From contig JADGHL010000031.1 in the NCBI GenBank assembly GCA_019686135.1, forward strand, positions 1 to 44,825: DNA of 44,825 nt. Direction: 5' to 3'. Source of the DNA: Myxococcaceae bacterium (GTDB lineage: Bacteria > Myxococcota > Myxococcia > Myxococcales > Myxococcaceae). Position numbers and translations under genes: made by a program. The first letter of the stretch is position 1. Each line of letters starts with the position of its first letter. Shown piece by piece: positions 1,952 through 44,825 of the stretch. Below the pieces are notes generated by a model. That model did not search any database and had not been told where the DNA came from. It saw only the letters and a list, made by a program, of their open reading frames with translations.

Positions 1952-2037
1952 GATTTTGCAGTGCCGGCAGACTCACGGGCGCGGCCGGCCGGTCTGCGCC
2001 CGTGCGGCCATTCCGTCAGTAGTTCCCGAGAGTTGCG

Positions 2038-2046
2038 TGCTACGCT
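2038..2046 (+). promoter_or_regulatory. Extended -10-like box upstream of the giant TPR gene
   Basis: TGCTACGCT ends 16 bases before the ATG at 2063. No Shine-Dalgarno sequence is present between it and the start. The same TGCTAnnnT form recurs upstream of other genes here (33818, and 40185 on the minus strand). No good -35 match is visible. Confidence 0.4.
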
Positions 2047-2062
2047 GCGCGCTCGCGGCCCC

Positions 2063-26989: not shown

Positions 26990-27914
26990 ATGGAGCTCGC
27001 CGTCGCTATCGGCATGGTGCTGGTCGCCAATCTGCTTCTGTCGACGGAGCGGATCCCCATCGAGGTCAGCTCAATCGCGATCGTCGTCCTCCTGGTCGTC
27101 AGCGGGCTGTCGACTCCGAAGGAGGCGCTCGCCGGGTTCTCCAGCGACACGGCGATCTTCCTCTTCGCGCTGGTGGTGCTCGCCCAGGGTCTGGGCGCCA
27201 CGGGTGTGATGCAGATGACCGGCCGGCGGATGCTGGTCTTCGCGCGCGTGGGCCGGAAGGTCTTCATCGCCATGCTGCTGGCGGTGGTCTGTCTCTTCTC
27301 GTCGGTCGCCTCCAACACGGCGGTCACCGCGGGCTTCCTCCCGATGGCGATGGCCTCTGCGGAAAAGGCGAAGATCCCGCACGGCGAGCTGCTCATGCCG
27401 CTCGCTTTCGCCTCCATCCTCGGCGGCACGATCACTCCGTTCGGCACCTCCACCAACCTGGTGTCAGCGCTGCGATGCGGAGTCTGGGGATTCGGCCGAT
27501 CGGCTTCTTCGAGCTGGTGCCGGTCGGGCTGACGCTGGCGATCGTCGGTATCGCCACCACGCTCGTTGCGGCGCGGTACCTGTTGCGGGTCATGGCGCCA
27601 CGGGCGTGGACACGACGCTGGTCCACCGGACGTACTTCAGCGAGGCGGCGTTCACGCCGGGGTCGCGCCTCATCGGCCGGCGCCTCGCGGAGCTCACGGA
27701 GACGATCGGGCTTCCGGTGCATGCGATCCTTCGCGGGGCGCGCTGCTCCGCCCGGATCCGGACGAGGTGATCCGCCCGGACGACCCCCTCGTCATACCGG
27801 TTCAGCGACTACCTCCGCGTCGGCGGGCCGCTCACGGCGCTCGCGGTCGTGCTGCTGCTGTTCGCCGTCCCGCTGGTCTGGCCCTTCGTCCCCGCGCCGG
27901 TTCCGGCCACCTGA
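26990..27914 (+). pseudogene. Broken SLC13-type (DASS/CitT-like) permease
   Basis: The intact first part (26990 to about 27465) reads as membrane helices of an SLC13-type permease, including SVASNTAVTAGFLPMAMA and GGTITPFGTSTNLV, the usual Na/substrate loops. The frame then shifts about four times: near 27470 (continuing MRSLGIRPIGFFELVPVGL), near 27600 (TYFSEAAFTPGSRLIGRRL, part of a TrkA_C/RCK_C domain), near 27742 (LLRPDPDEVIRPDDPLV) and near 27797 (RFSDYLRVGGPLTALAVV, a late membrane helix). The stop is at 27914. About half of a normal protein (second RCK_C domain and several helices) is missing between the last two pieces. Several independent breaks plus a deletion make decay more likely than sequencing error. 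Its end overlaps the 3' end of the efflux channel gene on the other strand. Confidence 0.75.
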
Positions 27915-29323: not shown

Positions 29324-32300
29324 CTGGGCGCCTCCGTGGCCGGATGTACGGCGGGGCGGCGGCGCCGCTGCCGGAAGGCTTTCCAGCGCTCGGCCAGCCG
29401 CTCCACCCACGCGTACAGCGGCGGCACCAGAAGCACCCCGAACACCGTCGCCACCAGCATCCCGGTGATCACGACGGTGCCCAGCTCACGCCGCGACACC
29501 GCGCCCGAACCGGTGGCGAACCACAGCGGCAGGCAGCCGAAGATGAACGCCAGCGAGGTCATCAGGATGGGCCGCAGGCGGATCCGCGCGCCCTCCACCG
29601 CGGCGTCCTCCACGCTCAACCCGTGCGCGCGCCGCGCCCGAGCGAACTCGACGATCAGAATCGCGTTCTTCGCCGCCAGGCCGACCAGCATGATCAACCC
29701 GATCTCGGCGAACACGTCGCTGGGGAACGCGCGGAGCGTCAGCCCGAGGTAGGCGCCGAGCACCGCCACCGGCGTGGTCAACAGCACGCTCCAGGGCAGC
29801 GACCAGCTCTCGTAGAGCGCCGCCAGCACCAGGAACACGAACACCACCGCGAGCGCGAACGACCGGCCGACGCCGCTGGTCCGCTGCTGCTGGTACGCGA
29901 GCGCGCTCCATTCGGTACGCATGTCGCCGGGAAGCACTGCGTGGGCCACGTCGGTGAGCGCGTCCATGGCCTGCGCCGAGCTGTACCCGGGCGCGGGCGT
30001 GGCGGTGACCTCCGCGGCCCGGTAGAGGTTGAAGCGGGTGATGTACTGCGGGCCCTGGCTGTTCCGGATCCGCAGCACCTGGGTGATGGGGATCATCCCG
30101 CCGCGCTGCGTCCGGATGGAGAACTGCGCCAGCGCGTCGGTGTTCGCGCGGTACTTCGGCTCCGCGCCCACGTACACGCGCCACGGGCGCCCAAAGAGGG
30201 TGAAGTCGTTGACGTACACGCCGGCGAGGAACGTCTGCAGCGTGGCGTACACGTCCGCGATCGACGCGCCCTGCTGCAGCAGCTGATCGCGATCGACGTC
30301 GATGTAGAGCTGCGGCACCGAAGCGCGGAACTGGCTCTGCACCTGGGTGAGCTCCGGGCGCCTCCGCGCGTCGACCAGAAAGCGCTGCAGGTGCTCCTCC
30401 AGGTACTCGGGCGTGTTGCCGCCCACGTCCTGCAGCTCCATCACCAGCCCGCCGGTGGCGCTGATCCCTGGGATCGACGGCGGGAGGATGGCGAACGCGG
30501 TCGCCGCGGGGACCGCCGCCAGCTTGCGGTTCAGCGCGGTGACGATCGCCTCCGCGCTCTCCTCGGGCGCCTTGCGTTCGCTCCAGCGCTCGAGCGTGAT
30601 GAAGAAGGATCCGAAGTTGGTGCTCGCGGTGGTGGAGAGGATGGAGTAGCCGACCACCGTGTTCACGTGGGCGATCCCCGGCGTGCGCCGGAGGATCTCC
30701 TCCATCTGCGCCATCGCCGCGTCGGTGCGCTGGAGCGAGGCGCCATCCGGCAGGCTGACGTTGATGAAGCAGTAGCCGAGGTCCTCGGTGGGGATGAAGG
30801 ACTTCGGCGTCCGCCGGGCCAGCAGGATCGCCGCCGCCGCGAACAGCCCCACGGCCAGAAGGCTGAAGGCGGCGCGGCGCACCAGCGCATGCGTGAGGCG
30901 CACGTAGCCACGGGTCGTCCGTTCGAAGGCGCGGTTGAACCACCGGAAGGCGCGCGCGCCCCAGCGCCCGCGGCGGCCCTCCTCGTGCGGGCGCAACAGC
31001 AGCGCGCACAGCGCCGGGCTGAGGGAGAGCGCGTTGAACGCGGAGATCAGCACCGAGAGCGCGATGGTGATCGCGAACTGCTTGTACATCCGGCCCGAGA
31101 TGCCGGAGACGAACGCCACCGGGATGAACACCGACGAGAGGATCAGCGCGATGCTGATGACCGGTCCCTGCACTTCCCGCATCGCCTGGAAGCTGGCGTC
31201 GAGCGGGGTCATCCCCTCCTCGATGTGGCGGCTGACGGCCTCCACCACGACGATCGCGTCGTCCACCACCAGGCCGATCGCCAGCACCAGCCCGAAGAGG
31301 GAGAGGGTGTTGATGGAGAAGCCGAGCGGGGGAAAGAAGAGGAACGCGCCGATGAGCGACACCGGCACGGTGAGCAGCGGGATCAGCGTGGCGCGGGCGC
31401 TCTGCAGGAACAGGAACACCACGGCCATCACCAGCAGCAGCGCGGCGACGAGTGTGATGAGGATCTCGCGGATGCCTTCGGTCACCGGCCGGGTGGTGTC
31501 CAGCGAGGTCTGGTACGCGAGGCCCTCGGGGAAGCTCTGGCTCAGCTCCTTCAACTTCTCCCGCACCCGTTGCACCACCTCCAGCGCGTCGGTGCCGGGG
31601 AGCTGGTAGACGGCCATCGTCGACGCGGGTCGGCCGTCGAAGCGCGAACGCTGGGCGTATGTCTGCGCGCCGAGCTCGATCCGCGCGACGTCCCGGAGCC
31701 GCACCACGCCGCCGTTTGGGAGGGCCCGGACCACGATGTCCGCGAACTCCTCGGGCGACCGCAGCCGGCCCTGCGCGCGCGCGGTGAGGGTAAGGTCGGT
31801 CCCCGGCGGCGCTGGCTCGGCGCCGATCTGCCCGGTGGGGTTGACGGTGTTCTGCGCGCGCACCGCGTTCTGGACGTCGACGGCGGTGATGCCCAACGCG
31901 GTGAGGCGATCCGGCTGCAGCCAGATCCGCATGGCGTAGTTGGACGCGCCGAAGACGAAGACGTCGCCCACGCCCGGGACTCGCAGCAGATCGTCGCGCA
32001 TCCGGATCGCCACGTAGTTGGAGAGGAAGGTGGGGTCGTAGCGGTCGTCGGGCGAGTAGACAGACACCAGGAGAAGCGGCGCCGGGTTCGCCTTGCGGAT
32101 GGTCACCCCGACCTGGTTCACCTGCGCCGGGAGGAACGGCGTGGCCTGCTGAAGCCGGTTCTGGGTCTGAATGTTGTCGAGGTCGATGTTGCTGTCCACG
32201 TCGAACGTGACCTGCATGGACATCGTCCCGTCGGCCGCGTTGATGGACCGCAGGTAGATCATGTTCTCGACGCCGTTCACCGCCTCTTCGATCGGCACCG

Positions 32301-32487
32301 CCACCGCCTGCTCGACGGTCAGCGGATCGGCGCCCTGGTACGAGGTCTGGATGTTGATCTGCGGCGGGGTGATGCCCTGGGGGAACTGGGCGATCGGCAG
32401 CGAGCGGATCGTCACGAGTCCGCCGAGCACCAGCACGAGCGAGACCACCATCGCCACGATCGGGCGACGGATGAAGAAGGGGCTCAT
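29320..32487 (-). CDS. RND multidrug efflux pump, HAE1 (AcrB-like) family
   Basis: 1,055 residues, the normal length. Proton-driven inner-membrane pump that works with the adaptor upstream and the channel downstream. It starts MSPFFIRRPIVAMVVSLVL (first membrane helix), then the porter domain (SLPIAQFPQGITPPQI). The proton-relay pair is D409-D410 in AIGLVVDDAIVVVE, and the partner lysine lies in AAKNAILIVEFAR. The second half repeats the layout, as usual. The ATG at 32487 overlaps the adaptor stop codon (ATGA) and the stop overlaps the channel ATG, so all three are translationally coupled. Substrates (drugs, solvents, dyes) cannot be predicted. Confidence 0.97.
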   Translation of the reverse strand: MSPFFIRRPIVAMVVSLVLVLGGLVTIRSLPIAQFPQGITPPQINIQTSYQGADPLTVEQAVAVPIEEAVNGVENMIYLRSINAADGTMSMQVTFDVDSNIDLDNIQTQNRLQQATPFLPAQVNQVGVTIRKANPAPLLLVSVYSPDDRYDPTFLSNYVAIRMRDDLLRVPGVGDVFVFGASNYAMRIWLQPDRLTALGITAVDVQNAVRAQNTVNPTGQIGAEPAPPGTDLTLTARAQGRLRSPEEFADIVVRALPNGGVVRLRDVARIELGAQTYAQRSRFDGRPASTMAVYQLPGTDALEVVQRVREKLKELSQSFPEGLAYQTSLDTTRPVTEGIREILITLVAALLLVMAVVFLFLQSARATLIPLLTVPVSLIGAFLFFPPLGFSINTLSLFGLVLAIGLVVDDAIVVVEAVSRHIEEGMTPLDASFQAMREVQGPVISIALILSSVFIPVAFVSGISGRMYKQFAITIALSVLISAFNALSLSPALCALLLRPHEEGRRGRWGARAFRWFNRAFERTTRGYVRLTHALVRRAAFSLLAVGLFAAAAILLARRTPKSFIPTEDLGYCFINVSLPDGASLQRTDAAMAQMEEILRRTPGIAHVNTVVGYSILSTTASTNFGSFFITLERWSERKAPEESAEAIVTALNRKLAAVPAATAFAILPPSIPGISATGGLVMELQDVGGNTPEYLEEHLQRFLVDARRRPELTQVQSQFRASVPQLYIDVDRDQLLQQGASIADVYATLQTFLAGVYVNDFTLFGRPWRVYVGAEPKYRANTDALAQFSIRTQRGGMIPITQVLRIRNSQGPQYITRFNLYRAAEVTATPAPGYSSAQAMDALTDVAHAVLPGDMRTEWSALAYQQQRTSGVGRSFALAVVFVFLVLAALYESWSLPWSVLLTTPVAVLGAYLGLTLRAFPSDVFAEIGLIMLVGLAAKNAILIVEFARARRAHGLSVEDAAVEGARIRLRPILMTSLAFIFGCLPLWFATGSGAVSRRELGTVVITGMLVATVFGVLLVPPLYAWVERLAERWKAFRQRRRRPAVHPATEAPR

Positions 32488-33689
32488 CGCCGCGGCGCTC
32501 CGGAGCCGCCCACGCCTGCGGGCGGGGCTGAGGGTCGCGCCGGCACGGGGTGGACCTGCTGGCCATCTTTCGCTTTGGCGAAGCCGTCCACCACCACCTG
32601 TTCGCCCGCCGCCACGCCCCGGCGGATCACCACCTCGCCGCCCACCGTCGGACCCAGCTCCACCTCGCGCACGTGCAGCACACCGCCCCGGTCCACCACG
32701 CCGACCCGCGTGACGTTCTGCAGCGCCTGGATCGCCCGCTCGGGCACGACCACCGCGCCGTGCAGCACCCGTGTCTGCAGCCGGACCCGCGCGTACTGGC
32801 CGGGACGCAGGATGCGGTCCGGGTTGGGGAAGACGGCGTCCACCTGGATCGTGCCGGTGGCCGGGTCCACCGCGCGGTTGGCGAAGACCAGGTCGCCCTC
32901 ATAGGGGTGGCGCGATCCGTCGGCGAGGAAGAGCTCGATCCTCCGCTGTGGCCCCACCGTTCCGTCCGCGCCCTCGCGGCGGCTGAGCTCCAGCCACAGG
33001 CGTTCGGGGAGCCCGAAGCGGACGCGCACCGGGTCCACCTTGCTCACGGTGGTGAGCAACGTGGGCGATCCCTGGCCGACCAGGTTGCCGATCTGGACCT
33101 CTGCGCGGCCGGCGATGCCGTCGATGGGTGAAGTGATCCGTGTGTACGAGAGGTTCAGCTTCGCCTGGTCCAGCGCCGCCTTCGTCGCGCGCACCTGCGC
33201 CGCCTGCTGCTTCTCGTTGGCGACGGCGGCGTCGTAGTCCTGCCGGCTCACCGCGTCGACCTCCACCAGCGGCCGCAGCCGGTCCCTCAGAGCCCGCGCG
33301 TTGATCCAGCTGGCGCGGGCACTCATCCACGCGGCGCGGGCGCGCTCCACCTCCGCGCGGTACTCGCGCGGATCGATCGTGAAGAGCCACTGGCCCTTCT
33401 TCACGAAGCTGCCCTCGCGGTAGCGCTGTTCGATGAGGAAGCCCGCCACCCGCGCGCGGATGTCCACGTTGATGTCGCCGTCCAGCGTCCCCACCAGCTC
33501 CGTGACGATCGGCACGTCGCGCTGTACGGCGCGCGTCACTGTGACGACGGGCGGCGGCGGGGCGGGCGGTGTCCTCTGCGCGGCATCACGGGCGCAGGCG
33601 CCCAGGCACAGGGCACACGCCCAGAGCGCGCGCGTGTGAAGGCGGTCTGCTGGAAGACGCCGGGCGGGCACGCGTGCGAGGGTGTGCAC
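32484..33689 (-). CDS. RND efflux periplasmic adaptor (AcrA/MexA family lipoprotein)
   Basis: 401 residues. The GTG at 33689 is used: GAGAGG lies 8 bases upstream and no ATG or GTG occurs between it and the lipobox. The signal ends in LCLGAC (acylated C32). The membrane-fusion layout follows: a barrel-sandwich half (VNVDIRARVAGFLIEQRY type hybrid motif, GSFVKKGQWLFTIDPREY), a helical hairpin, the second lipoyl half (LSYTRITSPIDGIAGRAEVQ), a beta-barrel (VDPVRVRFGLPERL) and a membrane-proximal domain (VVVPERAIQAL, GGEVVIRRGVAAGEQVVVDG). It is first in the operon and divergent from the ATP-grasp-like gene. No regulator gene is adjacent. Confidence 0.95.
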   Translation of the reverse strand: MHTLARVPARRLPADRLHTRALWACALCLGACARDAAQRTPPAPPPPVVTVTRAVQRDVPIVTELVGTLDGDINVDIRARVAGFLIEQRYREGSFVKKGQWLFTIDPREYRAEVERARAAWMSARASWINARALRDRLRPLVEVDAVSRQDYDAAVANEKQQAAQVRATKAALDQAKLNLSYTRITSPIDGIAGRAEVQIGNLVGQGSPTLLTTVSKVDPVRVRFGLPERLWLELSRREGADGTVGPQRRIELFLADGSRHPYEGDLVFANRAVDPATGTIQVDAVFPNPDRILRPGQYARVRLQTRVLHGAVVVPERAIQALQNVTRVGVVDRGGVLHVREVELGPTVGGEVVIRRGVAAGEQVVVDGFAKAKDGQQVHPVPARPSAPPAGVGGSGAPRR

Positions 33690-33836: not shown

Positions 33837-35048
33837 ATGGATCAGACCTTCCGGACGGCGTGGAACCAGGCGTTCACTCCGGCGCTGTACGCGCGCTACA
33901 CGAAGCTCCTGGAGGCCGAAGTCGGGCCGATCCCCTACCGCGTCGCCGAATCGCCGCTCTTTCTCCCCGAAGACCTTCGCGACGATCTCTTCCGCGTCAC
34001 CCGCGAGCTGCTCGAACAGCTCGCCGCTCCGGCGGCGATGGCGCGGGCGCGCGAGGCGATCCCTCCGGACTTCGACGTGCCTCGCTGTGACGACGCGCCG
34101 GGCTGCATGACGGTGGACTTCGCCATCGTCGAGGGCGAACAGGGGAGGCTGGAGGGCCGGGTCGTGGAGCTGCAGGCGTTCCCGTCGCTGTATGGCTTCA
34201 CCATCAAGCAGGCGCAGGTGTTCGACACGCTGTTGCGCGAGCTCCCCGGTATCCGCCGCGGCTTCCACTGCTTTGACCAGAAGTACGACTTCGACTCGGC
34301 GATTGCCCTCTTCCGCGAGGCGGTGCTCGCCGGCGGCGATCCGGAAGAGGTCGTGCTTCTGGAGATCGAACCGGACCGGCAGAAGACCCGCACCGACTTC
34401 GTGGCCACCCGCGCGCTGCTGGGCATCGACGCGGTCTGCGTGACGGAGGTGATCAAGGAAGGTCGCCGGCTGTGCCGGACGAAGGACGGCCGGAAGGTAC
34501 CCATCAAGCGCATCTACAACCGGGTGGTGTTCGACGAGCTTCTGCAGAAGAAGCCGAAGATGGCGTTCGCGTTCACCGACGATCTGGACGTCACCTGGTG
34601 CTGCCACCCGAACTGGTACTGGATGTGGTCCAAGTTCTCGCTCCCGGTGCTGGAGCACCCCTGGGTGCCGAAGTCCCATCTGCTCTCGGAGCTGAAGGAG
34701 CTCCCGGAGGATCTGTCGGCGTACGTGCTCAAGCCGCTGTTCTCCTTCGCGGGTTCGGGCGTGAAGATCGACGTCACCGAAGCGGACCTGCGCGCCATCC
34801 CTCCCGCCGAGCGGCGCCACTGGCTTCTGCAGCGGAAGGTGACCTACGCGCGCGCGCTCAAGACGCCGGAGGGGATCGGCGTGGCGGCGGAGGTGCGCAT
34901 CCTCTGCCTCCGTGCGCCCCGCCAGCGCCTGCCCGAGCCGTTCATGAACCTGGTCCGGCTTTCGCGCGGGAAGATGCTGGGCATCGACTACAACAAGGGC
35001 CTGGACTGGGTGGGGTCCACCGTGGCGCTCTGGCCGAAGGCGGAGTAG
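33837..35048 (+). CDS. ATP-grasp-like ligase, possibly circularly permuted (tentative)
   Basis: 403 residues from the ATG at 33837 (MDQTFRTAWNQAFTPALYAR); the open frame upstream is not coding in character and holds the promoter box. The C-terminal half has AYVLKPLFSFAGSGVKI (near residue 300), which looks like the Lys and Gly-rich loop of an ATP-grasp nucleotide site, preceded by HPNWYWMWSKFSLP and followed by HWLLQRKVTYARAL. The N-terminal half (TVDFAIVEGEQGRLEGRVVE, LQAFPSLYGFTIKQAQVFD) could hold the acidic metal ligands if the fold is permuted as in glutathionylspermidine synthase. This is motif reading only. It is convergent, 12 bases apart, with the GCS2-type ligase gene and probably belongs to the same pathway. 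Confidence 0.6.
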   Translation: MDQTFRTAWNQAFTPALYARYTKLLEAEVGPIPYRVAESPLFLPEDLRDDLFRVTRELLEQLAAPAAMARAREAIPPDFDVPRCDDAPGCMTVDFAIVEGEQGRLEGRVVELQAFPSLYGFTIKQAQVFDTLLRELPGIRRGFHCFDQKYDFDSAIALFREAVLAGGDPEEVVLLEIEPDRQKTRTDFVATRALLGIDAVCVTEVIKEGRRLCRTKDGRKVPIKRIYNRVVFDELLQKKPKMAFAFTDDLDVTWCCHPNWYWMWSKFSLPVLEHPWVPKSHLLSELKELPEDLSAYVLKPLFSFAGSGVKIDVTEADLRAIPPAERRHWLLQRKVTYARALKTPEGIGVAAEVRILCLRAPRQRLPEPFMNLVRLSRGKMLGIDYNKGLDWVGSTVALWPKAE

Positions 35049-35060
35049 CGGCCTTCTCCG

Positions 35061-36209
35061 TCAGGCGCTCCGCTGCACCGTCCCCGCATTCGGGCCGAGG
35101 CCCGCCATGGTCTCGTCCACCAGCCACCGGACCACCGCGCGGGCGTCGTTGGTCTCCTTGAAGATCCGCAGCTGGTGATCCGACGAGGTCCCCTCTTCGA
35201 GGATCTTCCGCACCGCGGCCACCTCCTTCTCGGTGCCGAGCAGCGCGGCGGCTTCGGAGACGAACGCGAGCAGCTCGTCCAGAAGCTCGGGGAAGGGGCG
35301 TTCGCGCTGTTCGCCGAAGTCGATCAGCCGGGCGTGCCGCCCGTACCGGCAGGCCCGCCACTTGTTCTCTTCGATCAGCGCGCTGGGGTAGGTGCGCCAC
35401 GCCATGTTGTGCCGGTAGAGCAGGTACAGCTGCGCGGTGAGCGCCTGGATCAGCGCCGCGAGCGCCACCGAATGCTCCAGCCGGGTCGGCATGTCGCAGA
35501 TCCGGACCTCCACCGTGTCGTAGAGGTAGTGGGCGCGCACGTCCCACCAGATCTTCTTCCCGTTGTCGATCGTGTTGGTTTTGATGAGCAGGTCGACGTA
35601 CTCCTTGAACTGCGAGTAGCTCTCGAAGACGCCGGGGATGCCGGTGCGCGGGAAGCGCTTGAACAACAGCGACCGGGTGGAGTGCTGCCCGGAGGCGCGG
35701 CCCAGCCACAGCGGCGACGAGGTGGACAGCGCCAGAAGGTGCGGGAGGAAGTAGCGGAGCTGGTTCGCCATCTGGATGGCGACCTCTTTCTCCTTGATCC
35801 CCACGTGCACGTGCAGCCCGAAGATCAGGTTGGCGCGCGCCACGTCCTGCATGTCCTCCACGATCGCGTGGTAGCGGTCGTGGTTGGTGATGTCCTGCGA
35901 CTTCCAGTCCGAGAACGGGTGGGTGCCCGCGCCGACGATCCGCATCCCACCCTGGCGGGCGATCCGGTCCAGCTCCACCCGCATCTCCGCGAGCTCGTCG
36001 CGGATCTCGCCCACGGTCTGGCAGACGCCGGTGCCGATCTCCACGACCGACTGGTGCATCTCCGGCCGCACCCGCTCGCGGAGGATCGCCTTGCCATCCT
36101 CGAGCAGGCGGGAGACGTAGGAGCGCAGCTCCCAGGTCTGGCCGTCGACGATCTGGAACTCCTCCTCCACGCCCAGCGTGAACTGCCCCTCGAGGGGATT
36201 GCGCATCAT
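35061..36209 (-). CDS. GCS2-type carboxylate-amine ligase (YbdK-like)
   Basis: 382 residues. The start is the ATG at 36209, overlapping the stop of the preceding ATP-grasp gene by ATGA and preceded by AAAGG. The signature TLGVEEEFQIVD (residues 11-22) and the later FGLHVHVGI, AHYLYDTVEVRICDMPTRL and MAWRTYPSALIEENKW are typical of the GCS2 family, which uses ATP to join the side-chain or alpha carboxylate of an acidic residue to an amine. YbdK itself has weak glutamate-cysteine ligase activity, but most relatives have unknown substrates. It is last in the minus-strand run of amide-bond genes. Confidence 0.92.
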   Translation of the reverse strand: MMRNPLEGQFTLGVEEEFQIVDGQTWELRSYVSRLLEDGKAILRERVRPEMHQSVVEIGTGVCQTVGEIRDELAEMRVELDRIARQGGMRIVGAGTHPFSDWKSQDITNHDRYHAIVEDMQDVARANLIFGLHVHVGIKEKEVAIQMANQLRYFLPHLLALSTSSPLWLGRASGQHSTRSLLFKRFPRTGIPGVFESYSQFKEYVDLLIKTNTIDNGKKIWWDVRAHYLYDTVEVRICDMPTRLEHSVALAALIQALTAQLYLLYRHNMAWRTYPSALIEENKWRACRYGRHARLIDFGEQRERPFPELLDELLAFVSEAAALLGTEKEVAAVRKILEEGTSSDHQLRIFKETNDARAVVRWLVDETMAGLGPNAGTVQRSA

Positions 36210-37255
36210 CGGACACCGCCTTTGTGGGTACGGGTGGTCGTAGCCTGCTCTGCGATGGGAGGCGCTGCGACCGCAGTCGGAGCCGCGGAGGCGGCCTCCT
36301 TCAGCGACGCGGCGATGGGCGAAAGGTGGGCGAGGTACTGCTGCCAGGCGTAGGTGATGGGCAGCGTCCGCTCCTCGCGCGCGACGTCGATGCAGAAGCG
36401 CGAGAAGGTGTCCAGGCACCACTCGTAGTTATCCGCGTGGATGTGGTGCGGGTACATGTCCGGCGCGGGGTTGGTGAAGTCGATCGCGTACGGCACGCCG
36501 TCCTTGATCGCGAACTCCACCGAGTTTTGGTCGTACCCGAGCGCCTGACAGAGCGTGCGCGCGTACCGGACCAGAAGCTCCTCCAGCGACTTCGGCCAGT
36601 CGCGATCGGCGAGGTAGCGCCGGTTCCGGCCGTCGTAGTGGATGACGCGGATGTTCGTCTTCCCGATGCAGATGCAGCGGTAGTAGTCGTCGAAGTCGAT
36701 GAACTGCTGCAGCGTCATCGCCGCGGTGCCCGAGTCGTTGTAGGCCACGAGCAGCTCCTCTATCGACGAGACCTTCGTGACGTTCCGCCCGCCACCGCCG
36801 TCCGCGGGCTTGAGGATGGCCGGGAAGCCCACGTAGCGGGCGATCGCCTCCCAATCGAGGGGGTAGACCAGGTTGCGCAGCGACCGGTTCTTGTCGATGG
36901 ACGGGACGTAGTCGCGCTGCGGCAAGAGCATCGTCCGCGGCACGGGCACGCCGAGCTTCGCCGCCAGGGAGAAGCCGAAGAACTTGTCGTCCGCCGAGAA
37001 CCAGAACGGATCGTTGACCACGTACACGCCGGCCAGCGCCGCGGCCTTGAGGTGGAACCGGTAGAACGGCACCTCGTGGCTGATGCGGTCCACCAGCACC
37101 GCGTAGCGCGAGGTGAACCGTTCGGGCGTGGCGTCGATCTGTGCGAGCTCCGCCGTCACGCCGTCGCCGATCCGGTTGATGCGATCGATCAGCGCGGCCG
37201 GGAAGAACGGCCCATCCGCTTCCATGCCCGCGAGGATTCCGATGCGCTTGGCCAT
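36206..37255 (-). CDS. ATP-grasp ligase (Ddl/RimK-like)
   Basis: 349 residues from the ATG at 37255 (MAKRIGILAGMEADGPFFPA), 5 bases after the esterase stop. The first 100 residues are a pre-ATP-grasp domain. The nucleotide site is visible at FPAILKPADGGGGRNV (K149 and the Gly-rich loop), and the metal ligands at SVEFAIKDGVPYAIDFTNP (E247, D259, N262). It is expected to activate a carboxylate as acyl phosphate and join it to an amine or amino acid. The C-terminal 40 residues are an Ala/Pro/Thr-rich tail. It is coupled to the GCS2-type ligase by a 4-base overlap, so the two ligases probably act in sequence. Confidence 0.9.
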   Translation of the reverse strand: MAKRIGILAGMEADGPFFPAALIDRINRIGDGVTAELAQIDATPERFTSRYAVLVDRISHEVPFYRFHLKAAALAGVYVVNDPFWFSADDKFFGFSLAAKLGVPVPRTMLLPQRDYVPSIDKNRSLRNLVYPLDWEAIARYVGFPAILKPADGGGGRNVTKVSSIEELLVAYNDSGTAAMTLQQFIDFDDYYRCICIGKTNIRVIHYDGRNRRYLADRDWPKSLEELLVRYARTLCQALGYDQNSVEFAIKDGVPYAIDFTNPAPDMYPHHIHADNYEWCLDTFSRFCIDVAREERTLPITYAWQQYLAHLSPIAASLKEAASAAPTAVAAPPIAEQATTTRTHKGGVR

Positions 37256-37260
37256 TGTGC

Positions 37261-37980
37261 TCACCAGGGGAGGTAGTGGTTGAACTGCAAACGCCAGACG
37301 GGCCAGTCGTGGTGGTAGCCGTTCCACGACGTGAGGTGGTTGCCGATCCCCTTTGCCCACAGCTTCTCGGACAGGCGCGAGGTGGAGTCGATGCACGGGT
37401 GGTGATCGTGCTCGGCGATCGCGAGGATGATCTCCTGCCGCTGCGCTTGCTGAATGAAGACGGGGTCGTGCAGGTTGGAGACCCACTGCAGCGGGCTGTG
37501 AAAGTAGACCCGCAGGTCGTGGTAGCCATCCAGCCAGCGCTCGGTCTCGAAGATCGCGGACAGAGTGAGGACGCGCTCGAAGGTCCAGGGGTGGCGCAGG
37601 CCGATGATCCCCGCGAGGAACCCGCCGAAGCTGGGGCCGGCTGCGGTGAGGCGGCCCGGCGAGGCGCGGGACCGGGCGAACGGGACCACCTCCTCCACGA
37701 TGTACGACTCGTACTGTTCGTGGCGCAGCACGCGGTCATGCGGGTGGGCGTTGCGGTTGGCCCAGCTCTCGGTGTCGACGTTGTCGACGCAGAACACCAT
37801 GTAGCGGCCGGCGCGGATCTTCTCCCCGATCGCGCCGATCATTCCCATGTCCTCGTTGAGCCAGAAGCGGCCGAAGGAGGAGGGGAAGAGGATCACCGGT
37901 TCGCCCTGGTGACCGAACACCAGGAGCTCCATGTCCCGGCCCAACCTCGGGCTGTACCAGCGGTGGTATTCGCGGTTCAC
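37261..37980 (-). CDS. Alpha/beta-hydrolase esterase
   Basis: 239 residues from the GTG at 37980, which overlaps the amidotransferase stop codon by GTGA. No signal peptide, so it acts in the cytoplasm. The nucleophile elbow is GPSFGG (S117); H224 in the C-terminal HHDWPVW is a good catalytic histidine, and an aspartate such as that in AEHDHHPCID may complete the triad. The fold resembles the esterase D/putative esterase family. Its place inside the ligase run suggests it hydrolyses an ester or activated intermediate, or acts as an acyltransferase. Confidence 0.9.
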   Translation of the reverse strand: MNREYHRWYSPRLGRDMELLVFGHQGEPVILFPSSFGRFWLNEDMGMIGAIGEKIRAGRYMVFCVDNVDTESWANRNAHPHDRVLRHEQYESYIVEEVVPFARSRASPGRLTAAGPSFGGFLAGIIGLRHPWTFERVLTLSAIFETERWLDGYHDLRVYFHSPLQWVSNLHDPVFIQQAQRQEIILAIAEHDHHPCIDSTSRLSEKLWAKGIGNHLTSWNGYHHDWPVWRLQFNHYLPW

Positions 37981-38921
37981 GTCGCGCCCCTGGCCTCCAA
38001 CGCTTCGTCTCCGGGTTTCCCGAACGCGCCCAGCGCGGTGGCGTCATACGAGGGATCGGCGATTGGATTCCAACCGCGCGCGGGCGCCAGCGCGTTGAAC
38101 TGTCGCGAGAGCCAACCGGGCAACAGCAGGTTGTAGGTCCGCGCCAGCCGCGTGGGGTCGTCGATCGTCCGGAGCATCCGCTCGTAGGTGACCTCGCCGT
38201 AGGCGTCGATGACCGCCTTCGCCTGCTCGGGGCGTTGGATCCAGGCCAAAACGCCCGGGCGATCTGCTTCGGGGTGGAAGATGGTGCCTTCGATCCCTGG
38301 AGCGAACCGGAAGGACATCAGCCCGCGCCCCTTGGAGACGCCGTCGCGGCTCTCAAGCGCGTAGAGCGCGCCGCCCAATTCGCGCAGCCGCTTTTCGTCG
38401 AGATCGATCGCCTGCCAGCAGCGGTGCTCCCAGGCGAAGAGGCGATCGCCGAAGGGCCGGAACAGCGGCGAGGCCCGGCCCTCCTCGGTGGGGTACACCG
38501 GCATCGACCCGAACTTGCGCTCGCGCGGCGCCATCGTGGCCACCTGGAAGTGCAGCGTGGCGATCTCGAACGAGTAGCAGACGACGAATGCGGCCGGCGA
38601 GGTGGGGCCGTGCGCCAGCTGACCTTCGACGATCCGATCGAGAAACGTGCGATAGGCCGGGGTCCACGCCTCTTTGAAGCCATCGAGCGGCGAGTCGGGG
38701 CCGCCGGTGGAGAGGTACAGGTCGCATCCCTCCGGCGGCGCCTCGCCGAGGTTGCGCGGCTGCACGTGGGTGACCTGGACGCGCAGCCCCGGGTTGGCCG
38801 CCGAGGCCCGTTCGCCGAACGCCGCGATCAGGGAGCGGAACGACCGGATGGCCTGGTTGGCCACTCCGTTGTTCATGTCGATGAGTCCGATGCGGAGCGG
38901 TGCGCGGGGAGCCTCGGCCAT
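37977..38921 (-). CDS. Class I glutamine amidotransferase-like protein
   Basis: 314 residues from the ATG at 38921. The N-terminal half is a GATase1 fold: IGLIDMNNG, the loop LYLSTGGPDSPLD, the nucleophile elbow FVVCYSFEIA (C115) and TIFHPEAD (H216 and E218 as the rest of the triad). About 95 residues follow the domain (SRQFNALAPARGWNPIADPS). It could supply ammonia to one of the ligases or act as a gamma-glutamyl hydrolase, as some relatives do. No synthetase domain is fused to it, unlike GMP synthase. It overlaps the esterase by GTGA and lies 12 bases after the subtilase stop. Confidence 0.85.
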   Translation of the reverse strand: MAEAPRAPLRIGLIDMNNGVANQAIRSFRSLIAAFGERASAANPGLRVQVTHVQPRNLGEAPPEGCDLYLSTGGPDSPLDGFKEAWTPAYRTFLDRIVEGQLAHGPTSPAAFVVCYSFEIATLHFQVATMAPRERKFGSMPVYPTEEGRASPLFRPFGDRLFAWEHRCWQAIDLDEKRLRELGGALYALESRDGVSKGRGLMSFRFAPGIEGTIFHPEADRPGVLAWIQRPEQAKAVIDAYGEVTYERMLRTIDDPTRLARTYNLLLPGWLSRQFNALAPARGWNPIADPSYDATALGAFGKPGDEALEARGAT

Positions 38922-38930
38922 GTGCGGACG

Positions 38931-38936
38931 AGCCTA
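38931..38936 (-). promoter_or_regulatory. -10-like box TAGGCT before the amidotransferase
   Basis: Reading on the minus strand, TAGGCT includes the subtilase stop codon and ends 9 bases before the ATG at 38921; no Shine-Dalgarno sequence is present. It could be an internal promoter of the operon. Confidence 0.3.
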
Positions 38937-40166
38937 GCGCAGAGCAGGGGGCCGCCGTCGTTCGGCCTCCATCAGCGCCTGCGCCGGGTTCACCACGCCC
39001 CAGCCCTGGCGCTCGACGGCGACCCCGGGGAGCCGGCGCGCGGTGTCGATGATGATCCGCTTCACCTCCTGCGGCGTCAGCGCCGGGTTTGCCTCTAGGA
39101 GCTGCGCCACGATGCTGGTGACGATGGGCGCGGCGAACGACGTCCCGTCGACGTGCTTGTAGGCGCCGTTGATCACCTTCTGATCGCGCAGCCGCGAGGA
39201 GATGAACTGGCGGATCAGGTATGGGGGATCGTCGCGCACCGAGTCGATCGCAGGGACGATCCCCGCGTGCTCGCGGATCACCCGGGGGAGCTCGTCGTCC
39301 GGTGTGGTGTTGAGCAGGGAGAGCAGCTCGGCCTCCTGCGCGGTGGGCGTCCCCGGCAGGATCGGCGCCACCACCCAGATCGCCGGCGCCACCACCTCCG
39401 GCTTCTGCAGCCCGTCGATGGTGGGGCCGTAGCAGGACCAGTAGGTGCCCATCTTCCCCCGTCGCGGATCGCCGCGGTCGTCGATGCCGCCCACGGTGAT
39501 CACCGCCGGCGTGCTGGCGGGGGCGATGATCCGGTTCTGCCCGTGCGCCGCGTTCCCCACCGCGCACACCACGACGATCCCCGCGCGCACCGCGTCCTCC
39601 GCGGCGCGACACAGCGGGTCGGTGAGGTAGCTGGACTCGTAGTCGCCCCCCGCGGAGATATTGAGGATGCGGATGTTGAACTCGTCCTTGTGGTCAATCA
39701 CCCAGCGGATGCCGCGGGTGATGTCGTCGTGCTTCACCCGCGAGAGGTGCCCGACCTTGACCAGCACCAGATCCATCTCCGGCGCCAGCGAGCGCCACTT
39801 CCCTTCCGAGAGGAAGCCGTTCCCGGCGGCGACCGTGGAGGTCATCATCCCGTGCCACATCGATCCGTCGGGTTCGCGGATGAGGTGCACGCCGCCCTTG
39901 TCGAGCAAAACGTCGTAGTAGGCGCGGATCCGGTTGCGCGGCTGCGTGAGATCGGGGTGTGCGAAGAAGCCGGAGTCGAGGAACGCGGCGGTCACGCCCC
40001 GGCCCAGGTAGCGCGGGTCGATCGCCAGGCGCTCGGCGATGGGCAGGATCGCCTCGGGCGGCGGTTCGCCCTCGGGCCACACGGCGGCGGGCTCCTTCCC
40101 GAGGAGCGGCGCCTCACCGTACACCACCACGTCCCGCTGCCTGTTCGCGTCGTCGTCGCCGGACAT
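38934..40166 (-). CDS. Subtilisin-like (S8) serine protease, cytoplasmic
   Basis: 410 residues from the ATG at 40166. The catalytic triad is D64 (AAFLDSGFF), H105 (SMWHGMMTS) and S343 (DGTSFAAP), with N205 (AVGNAAHG) as oxyanion residue. Unusual for the family: no signal peptide and no recognisable inhibitory propeptide, and about 65 extra residues (about 270-335) lie between the oxyanion region and the serine. It is therefore expected to act inside the cell on a specific substrate. It is first in the minus-strand run with the amidotransferase, esterase and two ligases, which suggests processing of a peptide precursor or product. Confidence 0.9.
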   Translation of the reverse strand: MSGDDDANRQRDVVVYGEAPLLGKEPAAVWPEGEPPPEAILPIAERLAIDPRYLGRGVTAAFLDSGFFAHPDLTQPRNRIRAYYDVLLDKGGVHLIREPDGSMWHGMMTSTVAAGNGFLSEGKWRSLAPEMDLVLVKVGHLSRVKHDDITRGIRWVIDHKDEFNIRILNISAGGDYESSYLTDPLCRAAEDAVRAGIVVVCAVGNAAHGQNRIIAPASTPAVITVGGIDDRGDPRRGKMGTYWSCYGPTIDGLQKPEVVAPAIWVVAPILPGTPTAQEAELLSLLNTTPDDELPRVIREHAGIVPAIDSVRDDPPYLIRQFISSRLRDQKVINGAYKHVDGTSFAAPIVTSIVAQLLEANPALTPQEVKRIIIDTARRLPGVAVERQGWGVVNPAQALMEAERRRPPALR

Positions 40167-40176
40167 GCGGGCGGGA

Positions 40177-40185
40177 AACGTAGCA
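40177..40185 (-). promoter_or_regulatory. Extended -10 box TGCTACGTT before the subtilase gene
   Basis: On the minus strand the box ends 10 bases before the ATG at 40166, without a Shine-Dalgarno sequence. It sits in the 58-base region shared with the divergent aminopeptidase gene, where CATGTT (40210-40215) lies 9 bases before the ATG at 40225. Confidence 0.45.
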
Positions 40186-40224
40186 GTCGGGAACCGCTCC
40201 GGCCTGTGTCATGTTGCGCGCGCC

Positions 40225-41784
40225 ATGACGATTCCTGCCCTCGTGAGCGCGGACGATCGCGCCCAGTCGTTCGATGCCCTGGTGGTGGTCGCCCCCTCGC
40301 CGCTGACGCAGACCCTAGCGCATGTGGACCTGCCGCAGCCCGTCCGCCGCGCAGTGGACCTGGCGCTCGCCGCCGACCGCGCGCTGGGGCGGGGACCGGT
40401 GCCGCCGGCGTTGCTCCCCTGCGCCGAGGTCCCGGGCGGGCGCGTGGTCGTAGCGCCGATGAACGCGCTCGCCGACGACGTGGACGACGTGCGCCTGGTC
40501 GGCGAGGCCACGTCCTCCGCGGTGATGCGCGCGATGCAGGCCGGCGCGCGGCGGCCGAAGGTGCTGGTGCACGTGCCCGACGACCCGAAGTTCTCGAGCG
40601 CGAAGGAGATCGCCGCGCTCGCCGCGCTGTGCGCGGGCTGGGAGCCGCTGGAAGCGCGCGAGGCGCGCGGCACCGCACCACGGGACATGGCGCTGGAGGC
40701 GGTGGCCGTCGCGGGGCTGAGCCCGTCGTCCCATCCGTTCGTCGAGGCTGTGGAGCAGGGCAGGGTGCTGGCGCGCGACTTCACGACGGCCGGGCCGGAA
40801 CGGATGACGCCCCTACGCGCGGCGGAGCTCTGTCAGTCAGCCTTCGAGGGCGTGCCCAACGTGCGGGTGGAGATCCGCCGGGACATCGACGGCTATCCGC
40901 TGCTTTCCGCGGTGGCCCGCGCCTCGCGCGTCGTCGAACGGCACCGGCCCTGCGTGATCCGCCTGGAGATCGTGCCGGATGGCGTGCCTACGAGGACGCT
41001 GCTGCTCGCCGGCAAGGGCGTGACCTACGACACGGGCGGTGCGGATCTGAAGACCGGCGGCGGCATGGCCGGGATGTCCCGCGACAAGGGCGGGGCCGGA
41101 TCGGTCGCCGGGCTGGTGCAGACCTTGTCGGCGCTCCGGGTGCCGGGCCTGCACGTGGTGGCGCTTCTGGGGATGGTCCGCAACAGCATCGGCGAGGAGT
41201 CGTTCGTCTCGGACGAGATCATCACCTCCCGTGGTGGGGTGCGCGTGCGGATCGGCAACACCGACGCCGAGGGGCGCCTGGTGCTGGCGGATCTTCTGGC
41301 GGAGCTCAAGGACGAGGCGAAGGACGCCCCGGCGCCGACGATCGTCTCGATGGCCACGCTCACCGGGCACGTGTTCCGCGCGTTCGGACCGTACGTGGGT
41401 GCGCTGGAGAACGCCGCCGCCCGCCAGCGTGGGTTCCTCGCGAAGCTGATGGCTGCCGGCGAGCAGGTGGGCGAACCCTTCGAGTCCACCCGCCCGCGCC
41501 GCGAGGACTACGCGTTCTGCGCGCCGAAGACGTCCGCCGAGGACGTCCTGTCCTCCAACCGGCTCGCCAGCGTGGACACGTCCCGCGGGCACCAGGGGCC
41601 GTTCGCGTTCCTCGACGTGGCGTCGGGCCTCAAGAACGCCGGGCTGCCGTTCGCCCACCTGGACATCTCCGGCGTGGTGGTGTCGCCACCGGACTGGCAG
41701 GCGGGGCGGCCCACCGGATCGCCGATCGCCGCGATGACGCAGATGCTCCTCGACGCGGCACGCGGAGCCGAGGTCCCGCGCTGA
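40225..41784 (+). CDS. M17 (leucyl aminopeptidase) family peptidase
   Basis: 519 residues from the ATG at 40225; the open frame upstream is antisense to the subtilase gene. The C-terminal catalytic domain has LAGKGVTYDTGGADLK (K264, D269, K276), MSRDKGG (D287) and NTDAEGRLVLAD (D347, E349, R351), which are the two-metal ligands and catalytic residues of PepA-type enzymes. The N-terminal domain is divergent. It is a cytoplasmic metallopeptidase removing N-terminal residues from peptides. The close divergent arrangement with the subtilase suggests shared control and perhaps a shared substrate. Confidence 0.92.
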   Translation: MTIPALVSADDRAQSFDALVVVAPSPLTQTLAHVDLPQPVRRAVDLALAADRALGRGPVPPALLPCAEVPGGRVVVAPMNALADDVDDVRLVGEATSSAVMRAMQAGARRPKVLVHVPDDPKFSSAKEIAALAALCAGWEPLEAREARGTAPRDMALEAVAVAGLSPSSHPFVEAVEQGRVLARDFTTAGPERMTPLRAAELCQSAFEGVPNVRVEIRRDIDGYPLLSAVARASRVVERHRPCVIRLEIVPDGVPTRTLLLAGKGVTYDTGGADLKTGGGMAGMSRDKGGAGSVAGLVQTLSALRVPGLHVVALLGMVRNSIGEESFVSDEIITSRGGVRVRIGNTDAEGRLVLADLLAELKDEAKDAPAPTIVSMATLTGHVFRAFGPYVGALENAAARQRGFLAKLMAAGEQVGEPFESTRPRREDYAFCAPKTSAEDVLSSNRLASVDTSRGHQGPFAFLDVASGLKNAGLPFAHLDISGVVVSPPDWQAGRPTGSPIAAMTQMLLDAARGAEVPR

Positions 41785-41973: not shown

Positions 41974-42948
41974 TCAGGATGTGCTGCGGCGTCGGCGCCG
42001 GGCCGCGCGCGCCAGCCGGGCCGACATCGCGCGCAGGTGATCGATGAGCTCCGGCGGCTCGTGAACCTCGAAGTCGAACCCGAGGTACGCGAGGTGGAAC
42101 GCCAGACCCTCGAGGCCGTTTCCGCCGGTGCGGACGCTGCAGCGCTGTCCGTCGATCGGCTCCACCCGGGCAGCGAGGCCGGACCAGCGCCTGCGCACCT
42201 CATCGGCCGGTGCGAACACGGTCGCGTGGGCCCGGTAGCGGTAGACGTCGGTGGACACGCTCTGCGAGACATACGCCGCTATGTCGTCGCTCGGCAGCGC
42301 GCGCGGTTGGAAGCGCCGGTCCGGTTTCGGCTTCGAGGCAATGCGATCCACCCGGAAGGTCCGCCATTCCTCTTTGTCGAGATCGAACGCGAGCAGGTAC
42401 CAGCGCGAGCTGGTGTGCACGAGCCGGTAGGGTTCGACCCTGCGCGCGGTCGGAGTGCCCGAGCGGTTCCGGTAATCGAAGCGCACGCCCTCCGAGTCAC
42501 GGCAGGCGTTCGCCAGGGCCGTCAGCACCTCCGCATTCACCCGCGGGCCGGCGTCCTGGATCCTTACGCTGACCGACTGCAGCGTGTTCACGCGGCGCCG
42601 CAGCCGCTTCGGGAGCACCTGCTCCAGCTTCGCGAGCGCGCGCATCGAGGCCTCTTCGAGCCCGGTGACCACGCCGGTGGCGGCCGCCCGAAGGCCCACC
42701 GCCACCGCGACCGCCTCCTCGTCCTCCAGCGGGAGCGGCGGGAGCTCCTTGCCCGCACCGAGTTGGTAGCCGCCGCCCACGCCTGCGGTGGCGTGCACCG
42801 GGTAGCCCAGGCTGCGCAGCCGATCGATGTCGCGGCGGACGCTGCGCTCCGTGACGCCCAGCTCACGCGCGAGGTCCGCGCCCGCCCAGAAGCGCCGCGA
42901 CTGCAAGAGCGAGAGGACCCGGAGGAGGCGTGCGGAGGTCTGGACCAT
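41974..42948 (-). CDS. YafY-type transcriptional regulator, HTH and WYL domains
   Basis: 324 residues from the ATG at 42948, with AGGAGGAGGG upstream. The N-terminal winged HTH (residues 5-60) contains DLARELGVTERSVRRDIDRL. A linker leads to the WYL domain (about 140-225) with RWYLLAFDLD (W183-Y184-L185) and the conserved RTFRVDRI, a ligand-sensing fold. A C-terminal WCX-like domain ends in a basic tail. It is divergent from the GFA-family gene, a common arrangement for YafY regulators, which usually control the divergent gene. The intergenic region holds two GGAC/GTCC inverted repeats. Confidence 0.92.
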   Translation of the reverse strand: MVQTSARLLRVLSLLQSRRFWAGADLARELGVTERSVRRDIDRLRSLGYPVHATAGVGGGYQLGAGKELPPLPLEDEEAVAVAVGLRAAATGVVTGLEEASMRALAKLEQVLPKRLRRRVNTLQSVSVRIQDAGPRVNAEVLTALANACRDSEGVRFDYRNRSGTPTARRVEPYRLVHTSSRWYLLAFDLDKEEWRTFRVDRIASKPKPDRRFQPRALPSDDIAAYVSQSVSTDVYRYRAHATVFAPADEVRRRWSGLAARVEPIDGQRCSVRTGGNGLEGLAFHLAYLGFDFEVHEPPELIDHLRAMSARLARAARRRRRSTS

Positions 42949-42973
42949 GGGTCAAAAGCCCTCCTCCTACTGA

Positions 42974-42988
42974 GGACCGAATCTGTCC
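42974..42988. promoter_or_regulatory. Inverted repeat GGAC-N7-GTCC, possible operator
   Basis: It lies between the WYL regulator and the GFA gene, 26 bases from the regulator start. It shares the GGAC/GTCC half-sites with the repeat at 43018. Confidence 0.35.
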
Positions 42989-43017
42989 GCAATGGTCCCT
43001 AGCTTGCGCGCACCACC

Positions 43018-43033
43018 GGGGACGGACGTCCCC
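43018..43033. promoter_or_regulatory. Palindrome GGGGAC-GGAC-GTCCCC, possible operator
   Basis: Perfect 6-base arms around GGAC, just before the ribosome site AAGGAG (43041-43046) of the GFA gene. It is well placed to block transcription or the leader. Confidence 0.4.
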
Positions 43034-43054
43034 ACACCTCAAGGAGCATCCGAC

Positions 43055-43492
43055 ATGAGCCAGATCCCCAATGGAGTCCGGACCTACCGCGGCAGCTGCC
43101 ACTGCGGCAACGTGAAGTTCGAGGTCGACCTCGACTTCGGCGCCGGCAGTGGCCGCTGCAACTGCACCTACTGCACCAAGGTGGCGCTGTGGGGCGCGAC
43201 CGTGAAGCCCGCTGCGTTCCGGTTGCTCAGCGACCCGGAGATGCTGGGGGACTACTCGCGGTCGTCCTTGGTGCACCACCGCTTCTGCAAGCGCTGTGGC
43301 GTCCGGACGCACGGCCACGGCGACATCCCGGAGGTCGGCGGCGAGTTCGTTTCGGTCAGCCTCAACTGCCTCGACGACGTCGACCTCAGCGGTGTGAACG
43401 TCCGGTACGTGGACGGCCGCCACGACACGTGGGCGCTGATCGCCACGCTGCCGCACACCAGCCCGTTCTCACAGAGGAACGCGCGGGCATAG
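43055..43492 (+). CDS. GFA-family zinc protein
   Basis: 145 residues from the ATG at 43055, with AAGGAG upstream. Zinc ligands of the GFA/CENP-V fold are in place: C15 and C17 (GSCHCGNV), C35, C37 and C40 (CNCTYC), and C78 and C81 (FCKRCG). The family is named after glutathione-dependent formaldehyde-activating enzyme, but most members have no proven glutathione reaction. It is divergent from the WYL regulator, which probably controls it. Confidence 0.92.
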   Translation: MSQIPNGVRTYRGSCHCGNVKFEVDLDFGAGSGRCNCTYCTKVALWGATVKPAAFRLLSDPEMLGDYSRSSLVHHRFCKRCGVRTHGHGDIPEVGGEFVSVSLNCLDDVDLSGVNVRYVDGRHDTWALIATLPHTSPFSQRNARA

Positions 43493-43635: not shown

Positions 43636-44825
43636 CTACGAGGTCGCTCGGTCGGCCGGGGGCAACGCCGCGTGGAACTCCACTGCGATCCGCTGCATGT
43701 AGCTCGTCAGCAGCTCTTCCACGCGGTTCGCATCCGGCGATCGCACGACCAGCCCGATGTGGTGCTTCTTGTCGAGCCGGTACCAGATCTCCGGATCCGT
43801 GAAGCTGGAGGTGTCCGGGACCTCCTGGCGTGCGAGCGAGATGATCACCCCGCCGTACGAGTCCTTCGCGGCGGGCACTTCGTACGCGAAGTCCGGCCCT
43901 TCGATCTCCAGCTTCGCCCACTCGCTCCACAGGTTGAGCCCCGTGGCGCCCTCCACCATCTCGGCGATGTTCGCGCCGCCCACGCGCGCGGAGGTCTCGA
44001 TGAAGTATGCCTTGCCGTCGTCCCGGCCGATGATGAACTCCGTGTGCGACGCGCCCAGCCGCATCCCGAAGCCGGGCAGAAGCTTGGCGTTGATGGCGGT
44101 GAGCGTGGCGCGCTCCTTCGCGTCGCGCGGCAGCATCCGCGTGGCGTAGATGCCGCCGCCCTGCGCCACCTCCAAGAGCGGCTTGTGGTACCGGCTCACC
44201 ACGGCGAACACCACCTGCCCGCGCGAGACCAACGAGTCCACGTGGTACATCTCGCCGGCGATCATCCGTTCGATCAGATGATCGCTCCGCGCGTCGCCGA
44301 GCGCGTGGATGTGCGCCCACGCCTCGTCCTTCGTGTGCAGCTTCCGGATCCCCACCGCGGACGCCTCCGCGCGTGGCTTCAGCAGCCACGGTGCGGGGAC
44401 GGTCTCCAGAAAGTGCGTCACGTCCACGTCATGGAAGAGCGGACAGAAGTCCGGGGCCCGCACCCCGAGCGCCTTCGCCCGCATCCGCATCGCCAGCTTG
44501 TCCCGGAAGAAGCGCGCGTCCGAGTCGCCCAGACCGTCGATCCGGAAGTGCTCGCGCAGCGCGGCGGCCACCTCCACGTCGTAGTCGTCCAGCGCGACGA
44601 TCCGGTCGAACCTGATGCTGCGGAACAGATACGCCACCGTGTGGATGAGCTCGCGGCGGTCGGCGAACGTCCGCACCAGGAACAGATCGTCGAGCGCCTC
44701 GCGCGCCCAGGGTTCGTGCCGCGTGGACTCGGTGGTGAGCAGGAACACACGGCAGCCTTCGGCCTTCGCGCGTTCGAGGAACCGGTTGCCTTTGAAGTAG
44801 CTGGAGAGGGCGAGCAGGGTGGGGC
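43636..44825 (-). CDS. ATP-grasp protein (carbamoyl-phosphate synthase/biotin carboxylase-like), 5' partial
   Basis: The frame stays open to the right edge and its codons there are clearly coding (TLLALSSYFKGNRFLERA, then AKAEGCRVFLLTTE), so the start lies outside the window and the GTG at 44748 is internal. The N-terminal part is a Rossmann-like pre-ATP-grasp domain. ATP-grasp motifs: APWLLKPRAEASAVGI (Lys and Gly/Ala loop) and KAYFIETSARVGGANIAEM (metal-binding Glu and the following Asn). It is expected to form an amide or similar bond with ATP. It is convergent with the GFA gene. Whether it joins the amide-bond pathway at 33.8-41.8 kb is unknown. Confidence 0.9.
   Translation of the reverse strand, partial: PTLLALSSYFKGNRFLERAKAEGCRVFLLTTESTRHEPWAREALDDLFLVRTFADRRELIHTVAYLFRSIRFDRIVALDDYDVEVAAALREHFRIDGLGDSDARFFRDKLAMRMRAKALGVRAPDFCPLFHDVDVTHFLETVPAPWLLKPRAEASAVGIRKLHTKDEAWAHIHALGDARSDHLIERMIAGEMYHVDSLVSRGQVVFAVVSRYHKPLLEVAQGGGIYATRMLPRDAKERATLTAINAKLLPGFGMRLGASHTEFIIGRDDGKAYFIETSARVGGANIAEMVEGATGLNLWSEWAKLEIEGPDFAYEVPAAKDSYGGVIISLARQEVPDTSSFTDPEIWYRLDKKHHIGLVVRSPDANRVEELLTSYMQRIAVEFHAALPPADRATS

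Follow-up and report, generated by a model that had tools for sequence, protein, structure and literature searches.

Conserved amide-bond ligases and hydrolases in a Myxococcaceae genome: a candidate module for a gamma-glutamyl compound

What could a bacterium make, or take apart, with a tightly packed gene set that combines several amide-bond-forming ligases with a GATase1-fold protein, an esterase and peptidases? This question is raised by contig JADGHL010000031.1 of the Myxococcaceae bacterium assembly GCA_019686135.1, an entire contig of a 5.5 Mb genome, all 44,825 nucleotides of which form the window analysed here. An original prediction, made from the letters of the window, had proposed that seven of its genes, for amide ligases and hydrolases, work together to make and trim a gamma-glutamyl or peptide-like compound. 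We found the core of this neighbourhood to recur across phyla and its families to co-occur genome-wide, in support of such a joint function, and the making and trimming of a gamma-glutamyl or peptide-like compound is supported as a likely reading. With moderate confidence, we propose that the genes form a cytosolic module that makes and turns over a gamma-glutamyl peptide or pseudopeptide, in the manner of the glutathione and glutathionylspermidine pathways but without being a route to glutathione. The seven genes are present at the predicted positions, and an eighth is added here:

40166-38934, minus strand: S8 subtilase, first in transcription order (PF00082, 133 bits)
38921-37977, minus strand: GATase1-fold protein (GAT) without a Pfam match, triad C115/H216/E218; core
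37980-37261, minus strand: alpha/beta-hydrolase, putative esterase (PF00756, 45 bits; GxSFGG motif with nucleophile S117, and H224)
37255-36206, minus strand: RimK/D-Ala-ligase-like ATP-grasp ligase of 349 amino acids (ATPg), assigned by profile and structure match; core
36209-35061, minus strand: GCS2/YbdK-family carboxylate-amine ligase of 382 amino acids (PF04107, NF010039), predicted gamma-glutamyl ligase; core
33837-35048, plus strand: predicted ATP-grasp ligase of the glutathione synthetase (GS)/glutathionylspermidine synthetase/YgiC type, 403 amino acids (grasp2), assigned by predicted fold and co-occurrence; core
40225-41784, plus strand: M17 leucyl-aminopeptidase-type peptidase (PF00883, 191 bits); accessory
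43636-44823, minus strand: third ATP-grasp ligase (grasp3; PF18130/PF13535), truncated by the contig end

The five minus-strand genes are packed as tightly as predicted, with a 12-base gap, a 4-base overlap, a 5-base gap and a 4-base overlap at their successive junctions. The grasp2 gene converges on the GCS2 gene, their ends lying 12 bases apart, and the M17 gene diverges from the S8 gene.

Conservation of the set extends well beyond close relatives, into other phyla, so that the original prediction withstood the refutation test it had named for this point. The core of ATPg, GCS2, GAT and grasp2, often accompanied by the esterase, is present in both Myxococcota and Bacteroidota. Among 195 Myxococcota genomes, the GAT family is present at E below 1e-97 in 14, grasp2 in exactly the same 14 (with a weaker relative in one other), and ATPg in these 14 carriers and one more genome. 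The carriers belong to several families, within which their distribution is patchy, and the nominal Fisher p values for co-occurrence (about 1e-20 to 1e-21) ignore shared ancestry and are therefore descriptive. A scan of genome contigs with a profile made from the GAT alignment yielded at least 80 loci, mostly from Bacteroidota among the matches listed. Genes for an esterase, ATPg, GCS2, GAT and a grasp2-type ligase follow each other in this order, all codirectional, in 35 of the 74 non-myxobacterial loci among these matches; further loci hold subsets of the five genes, some of them ended by contig edges, and no S8 gene was found in the 74. Strong matches among 247 Bacteroidota genomes number 59 for GAT, 86 for ATPg and 73 for grasp2, with ATPg present in 58 of the 59 GAT carriers and in 70 of the 73 grasp2 carriers. 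ATPg together with grasp2 occurs without GAT in 25 sampled Bacteroidota genomes, and many members of this phylum have GAT without grasp2.

ATPg was detected in all eight genomes tested for it, including ones in which it is not near the GAT gene, and it adjoins GCS2 in Calditrichaceae, Sorangium cellulosum So0008-312 and Candidatus Tanganyikabacteria. The phylum of the latter (Cyanobacteriota lineage) has a strong ATPg match in 8 of 244 genomes, with GCS2 nearby in all five further loci retrieved. ATPg is the most widespread core member, and the genome counts and the adjacency of the two genes thus make ATPg and GCS2 the most widespread pair, to which GAT and the GS-type ligase have been joined independently in part. 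As predicted, the set includes no part of a nonribosomal peptide synthetase (NRPS) and no conserved membrane part.

The GCS2 protein scores well above the cutoffs of PF04107 (217 bits, cutoff 21), TIGR02050 (297 bits, cutoff 176) and NF010039 (508 bits, cutoff 371), and far below those of the glutamate-cysteine ligase profiles TIGR02048 (81 bits) and TIGR01436 (19 bits). Many columns of its alignment are 100% conserved. Judged by these matches, it belongs to an uncharacterised branch, the carboxylate-amine-ligase family NF010039 inside the gamma-glutamyl-ligase superfamily. The neighbouring ATPg is a single RimK/Ddl-like ATP-grasp protein that has no Pfam match at E 0.01, reaches 42 bits against TIGR00768 (below the 143-bit cutoff) and matches the D-Ala ligase structure 3r23 (Ddl) with E 3e-7, carrying a D-x-x-N motif where the D-Ala ligase has E-x-N.

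The convergent ligase grasp2 likewise has no Pfam match at E 0.01. Its AlphaFold2 model, built from 41 sequences with a predicted local distance difference test (pLDDT) value of 92.2, matches YjfC (Z 26.1), YgiC (Z 25.7), human GS (Z 24.1), GspS (Z 23) and fungal Cp1B (Z 22) over the full length of the protein (Z 22-26 over 330-373 residues), and RimK, LysX and D-Ala ligases are much weaker matches (Z 6-8). We therefore dropped the label of an R2K/CDC123-type ATP-grasp, an idea from a paper, because the structure matched YgiC/GS instead, and a glutathione-synthetase/YgiC-type fold is predicted for this core member. YgiC and YjfC are peptide-spermidine ligases (PMC12568646 and work cited there), and Cp1B is a fungal ligase that forms amide bonds in E-64 synthesis (PMC12568646). 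These enzymes share the fold with grasp2 over its whole length (Z 26 for YgiC/YjfC and 22 for Cp1B), but with 12-15% identity and with differences in key positions: aligned with YgiC, grasp2 has ELQ opposite ENN (ExN becoming ExQ) and FAG opposite REG, and it does not retain the Arg of RxD. E352, R354 and N386, which are invariant or nearly so, could substitute for the changed residues. Thus, the expectation that all catalytic residues are intact held for the motifs examined in GAT, the esterase, S8, M17 and GCS2, and failed for grasp2.

GAT is a third core protein without a Pfam match at E 0.01. Its Cys-His-Glu triad (C115/H216/E218) is found in 95 of 95 sequences, as is a nucleophile motif of the form CxSx[E/Q] instead of CxGxQ. 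The AlphaFold2 model (pLDDT 91.5) is nearest to TM1158, homoserine succinyltransferases, plant gamma-glutamyl peptidase 1 (GGP1) and DnfC (Z 21-22), with TrpG, GuaA and CarA lower (Z 16-19). Because stand-alone GATase1 structures outrank TrpG, GuaA and CarA, the model favours, without proving, a stand-alone hydrolase or transferase, and in the comparison with CarA/CarB GAT is likewise nearer to stand-alone GATases than to the coupled type.

A sister cluster with divergent proteins is found at four other Myxococcota loci (L143:4568-12951, L144:7040-13108, L145:7105-13499 and L146:7426-13559). Its ATP-grasp is a remote paralogue (28% identity), after which comes an esterase that is likewise remote (29%). 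The GCS2-like domain forms a fusion with CBS domains, a Fes-type esterase is encoded upstream, and the adjoining S51-like hydrolase has a motif with a Ser nucleophile. That the same five roles recur speaks for a function of the combination as such, and for a hydrolase in the place taken by the GATase1-fold protein. A glycogen synthase gene lies nearby in L143 and L144.

From the gene content, conservation, co-occurrence, predicted folds and conserved residues given above, we infer activities, an order and direction of steps, and substrates as follows. GCS2 would form an amide between an amine and the gamma-carboxyl group of glutamate, and the RimK-like ATPg and grasp2 may extend the product by another one or two acid-amine bonds. 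GAT would cut or transfer the gamma-glutamyl bond, the esterases may act on, and release, an ester or thioester intermediate, and in myxobacteria the S8, M17 and M61 peptidases may process a peptide form. The genome has a GshA-like protein elsewhere (G000:C9; plant-type, 368 bits against TIGR01436, below the 463 cutoff), and its best GshB-like match lies on another contig (C122, 202 bits against PF02955); PF02955 has no match among the cluster proteins. Since the genome thus has a separate GshA-like and GshB-like pair, the product of the module is probably other than glutathione.

The proposed module can be set beside known systems. Glutathione, glutathionylspermidine and trypanothione pathways likewise combine a ligase family acting on the gamma-carboxyl of glutamate with a ligase of the eukaryotic GS/GspS/YgiC fold, and are likewise cytosolic and NRPS-independent, but the module has a GCS2 of the NF010039 branch, altered residues in grasp2, and an extra RimK-like ATP-grasp, a GATase1-fold enzyme and an esterase. 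In putrescine degradation by PuuA/PuuD and in butirosin-type protection, a gamma-glutamylating ligase is paired with a gamma-glutamyl-cleaving enzyme, PuuD having the GATase1 fold; in contrast to these, the ligase here is a GCS2 protein, two further ligases and esterases are present, and no oxidase or aminotransferase belongs to the conserved set. Neighbourhoods of amidoligases and hydrolases are an already known kind, and Iyer et al. 2009 reportedly predicted amidoligase operons in which ligases of the ATP-grasp or GCS2 type occur alongside peptidases and GATases. A prior description of this particular gene set was not found in the open-access papers searched, although an earlier mention is possible.

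A narrower and more tentative version of the proposal is that the product is a hitherto undescribed low-molecular-weight, glutathione-like gamma-glutamyl conjugate, possibly capped with an amine or polyamine, for which Myxococcota, Bacteroidota, a Calditrichota genome and Cyanobacteriota-lineage bacteria would have a dedicated module with a recycling hydrolase. If the general gamma-glutamyl proposal is correct, it points to a novel compound of this class, and the glutathione-synthetase fold would have gained a further use. Of the five core families, three (GAT, ATPg and grasp2) have no Pfam match for the protein of this locus and the GCS2 branch is uncharacterised, yet they are co-inherited across phyla, and the defined set of four or five enzymes is found in culturable bacteria such as Pedobacter, Mucilaginibacter, Spirosoma, Dyadobacter and Sorangium.

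Several points weigh against the gamma-glutamyl proposal. The co-occurrence statistics are uncorrected for shared ancestry, and likeness in fold is no proof of activity: acyltransferases and ammonia donors, too, are found among the relatives with a GATase1 fold. The ligase grasp2 is without some of the metal and catalytic residues that are canonical in its fold family, and could have another chemistry or be inactive. A single linear pathway with every step obligatory does not describe the module, because many Bacteroidota have ATPg and grasp2 without GAT, or GAT without grasp2. Finally, the esterase is often unlinked from the module in Myxococcota, and related genomes carry it as an orphan gene.

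Among the alternatives, the one that survives best, though we consider it unlikely, is amidation, in which GAT would hydrolyse glutamine and pass the ammonia to ATPg as CarA does to CarB, yielding a carboxamide to which GCS2 and grasp2 add bonds. The GATase1 triad is complete, GAT and ATPg are adjacent in Myxococcota and co-occur in nearly every Bacteroidota carrier of GAT (58 of 59), and ATP-grasp enzymes are known as ammonia acceptors, CarB being an example. However, the GAT structure is nearer to stand-alone hydrolases and transferases than to coupled glutaminases, its nucleophile motif departs from CxGxQ, the 25 sampled Bacteroidota genomes have both ligases without GAT, and the counterpart of GAT in the sister cluster is a serine-nucleophile S51-like protein.

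Next in standing, and rather improbable, is the storage or turnover of a polymer or oligomer with isopeptide bonds, on the model of cyanophycin: the ligases would build the chain, and GAT together with the peptidases would break it down to supply nitrogen or carbon. The S51-like hydrolase of the sister cluster is of the cyanophycinase class and two of the sister loci have the glycogen synthase gene, and peptidases are linked to the cluster in Myxococcota. Yet the cluster has no multidomain enzyme resembling cyanophycin synthetase, and the enzymes that grasp2 matches in structure couple a short acid to a single amine.

We give still less credence to protein or peptide tagging, in which ATPg would tag a protein by ligation of glutamate or a gamma-glutamyl unit, which GAT, the subtilase and the aminopeptidase would remove or process. 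Such a role would suit the RimK-like character of ATPg and the linkage of a cytosolic-looking subtilase and aminopeptidases in Myxococcota, but GCS2 and grasp2 resemble small-molecule or short-peptide ligases and the Bacteroidota operon is without S8. Nor was a conserved small open reading frame (ORF) for a precursor or tag found in the operon, its junctions or its surroundings in Bacteroidota loci, which leaves the peptide tag offered in the original prediction unsupported. The only recurring small ORF encodes a Cys-rich membrane peptide of about 52 amino acids, downstream of and outside the operon (L042:12059-12215, plus strand, with similar ORFs in 23 further Bacteroidota loci), which probably belongs to a neighbouring gene set; a reading of the locus as one for a ribosomally synthesised precursor (graspetide) was rejected on this ground. 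That unrelated housekeeping genes lie together by chance or local conservation is hardly credible: although dense packing is common in bacteria and the nearby M17, WYL and GFA genes lack wide conservation as partners, many genomes share the neighbourhood, with synteny across phyla, and the three families GAT, ATPg and grasp2 co-occur genome-wide even where their genes are unlinked.

The remaining genes are variable around the core. The esterase of the locus is about 40% identical to that of the Bacteroidota operon and 57-59% identical to a lone esterase in a Myxococcus-like genome and in another module carrier (G099), and among the myxobacterial loci examined only this one has the esterase between GAT and ATPg. 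Two lone esterases with this 57-59% identity (L147:9953-10687 and L148:9268-9990) have the rest of the module absent nearby.

The S8 subtilase, the M17 and M61 peptidases and grasp3 are myxobacterial accessories. The subtilase has the Asp, His and Ser motifs and no export signal evident by eye, and it adjoins the GAT gene in 12 of the 13 other Myxococcota carriers, either codirectionally or divergently. Core membership of M17, as originally predicted, was not borne out, as this gene is linked to the cluster in close relatives only (L022-L024) and others have M61, which adjoins grasp3 in L028 and L029. The cluster probably extends past position 41784 to include grasp3, because this gene is conserved beside the same genes in relatives (grasp2 or M17; L022-L024, L028, L029 and L149).

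Between M17 and grasp3 (41974-43492) lie genes for a WYL-domain regulator and a GFA-domain protein, which were rejected as members since they are not beside the cluster in the neighbourhoods of relatives. On the other side, divergent from grasp2, an apparent RND-type tripartite efflux set (outer membrane efflux protein, RND pump and adaptor) occupies 27809-33689 on the minus strand; its RND efflux genes (29320-33689) were also rejected as part of the system, the adaptor being without a good match in the cluster neighbourhoods of relatives. Farther away, positions 1961-14371 on the plus strand hold a single ORF for a TPR-repeat-rich protein of 4136 amino acids.

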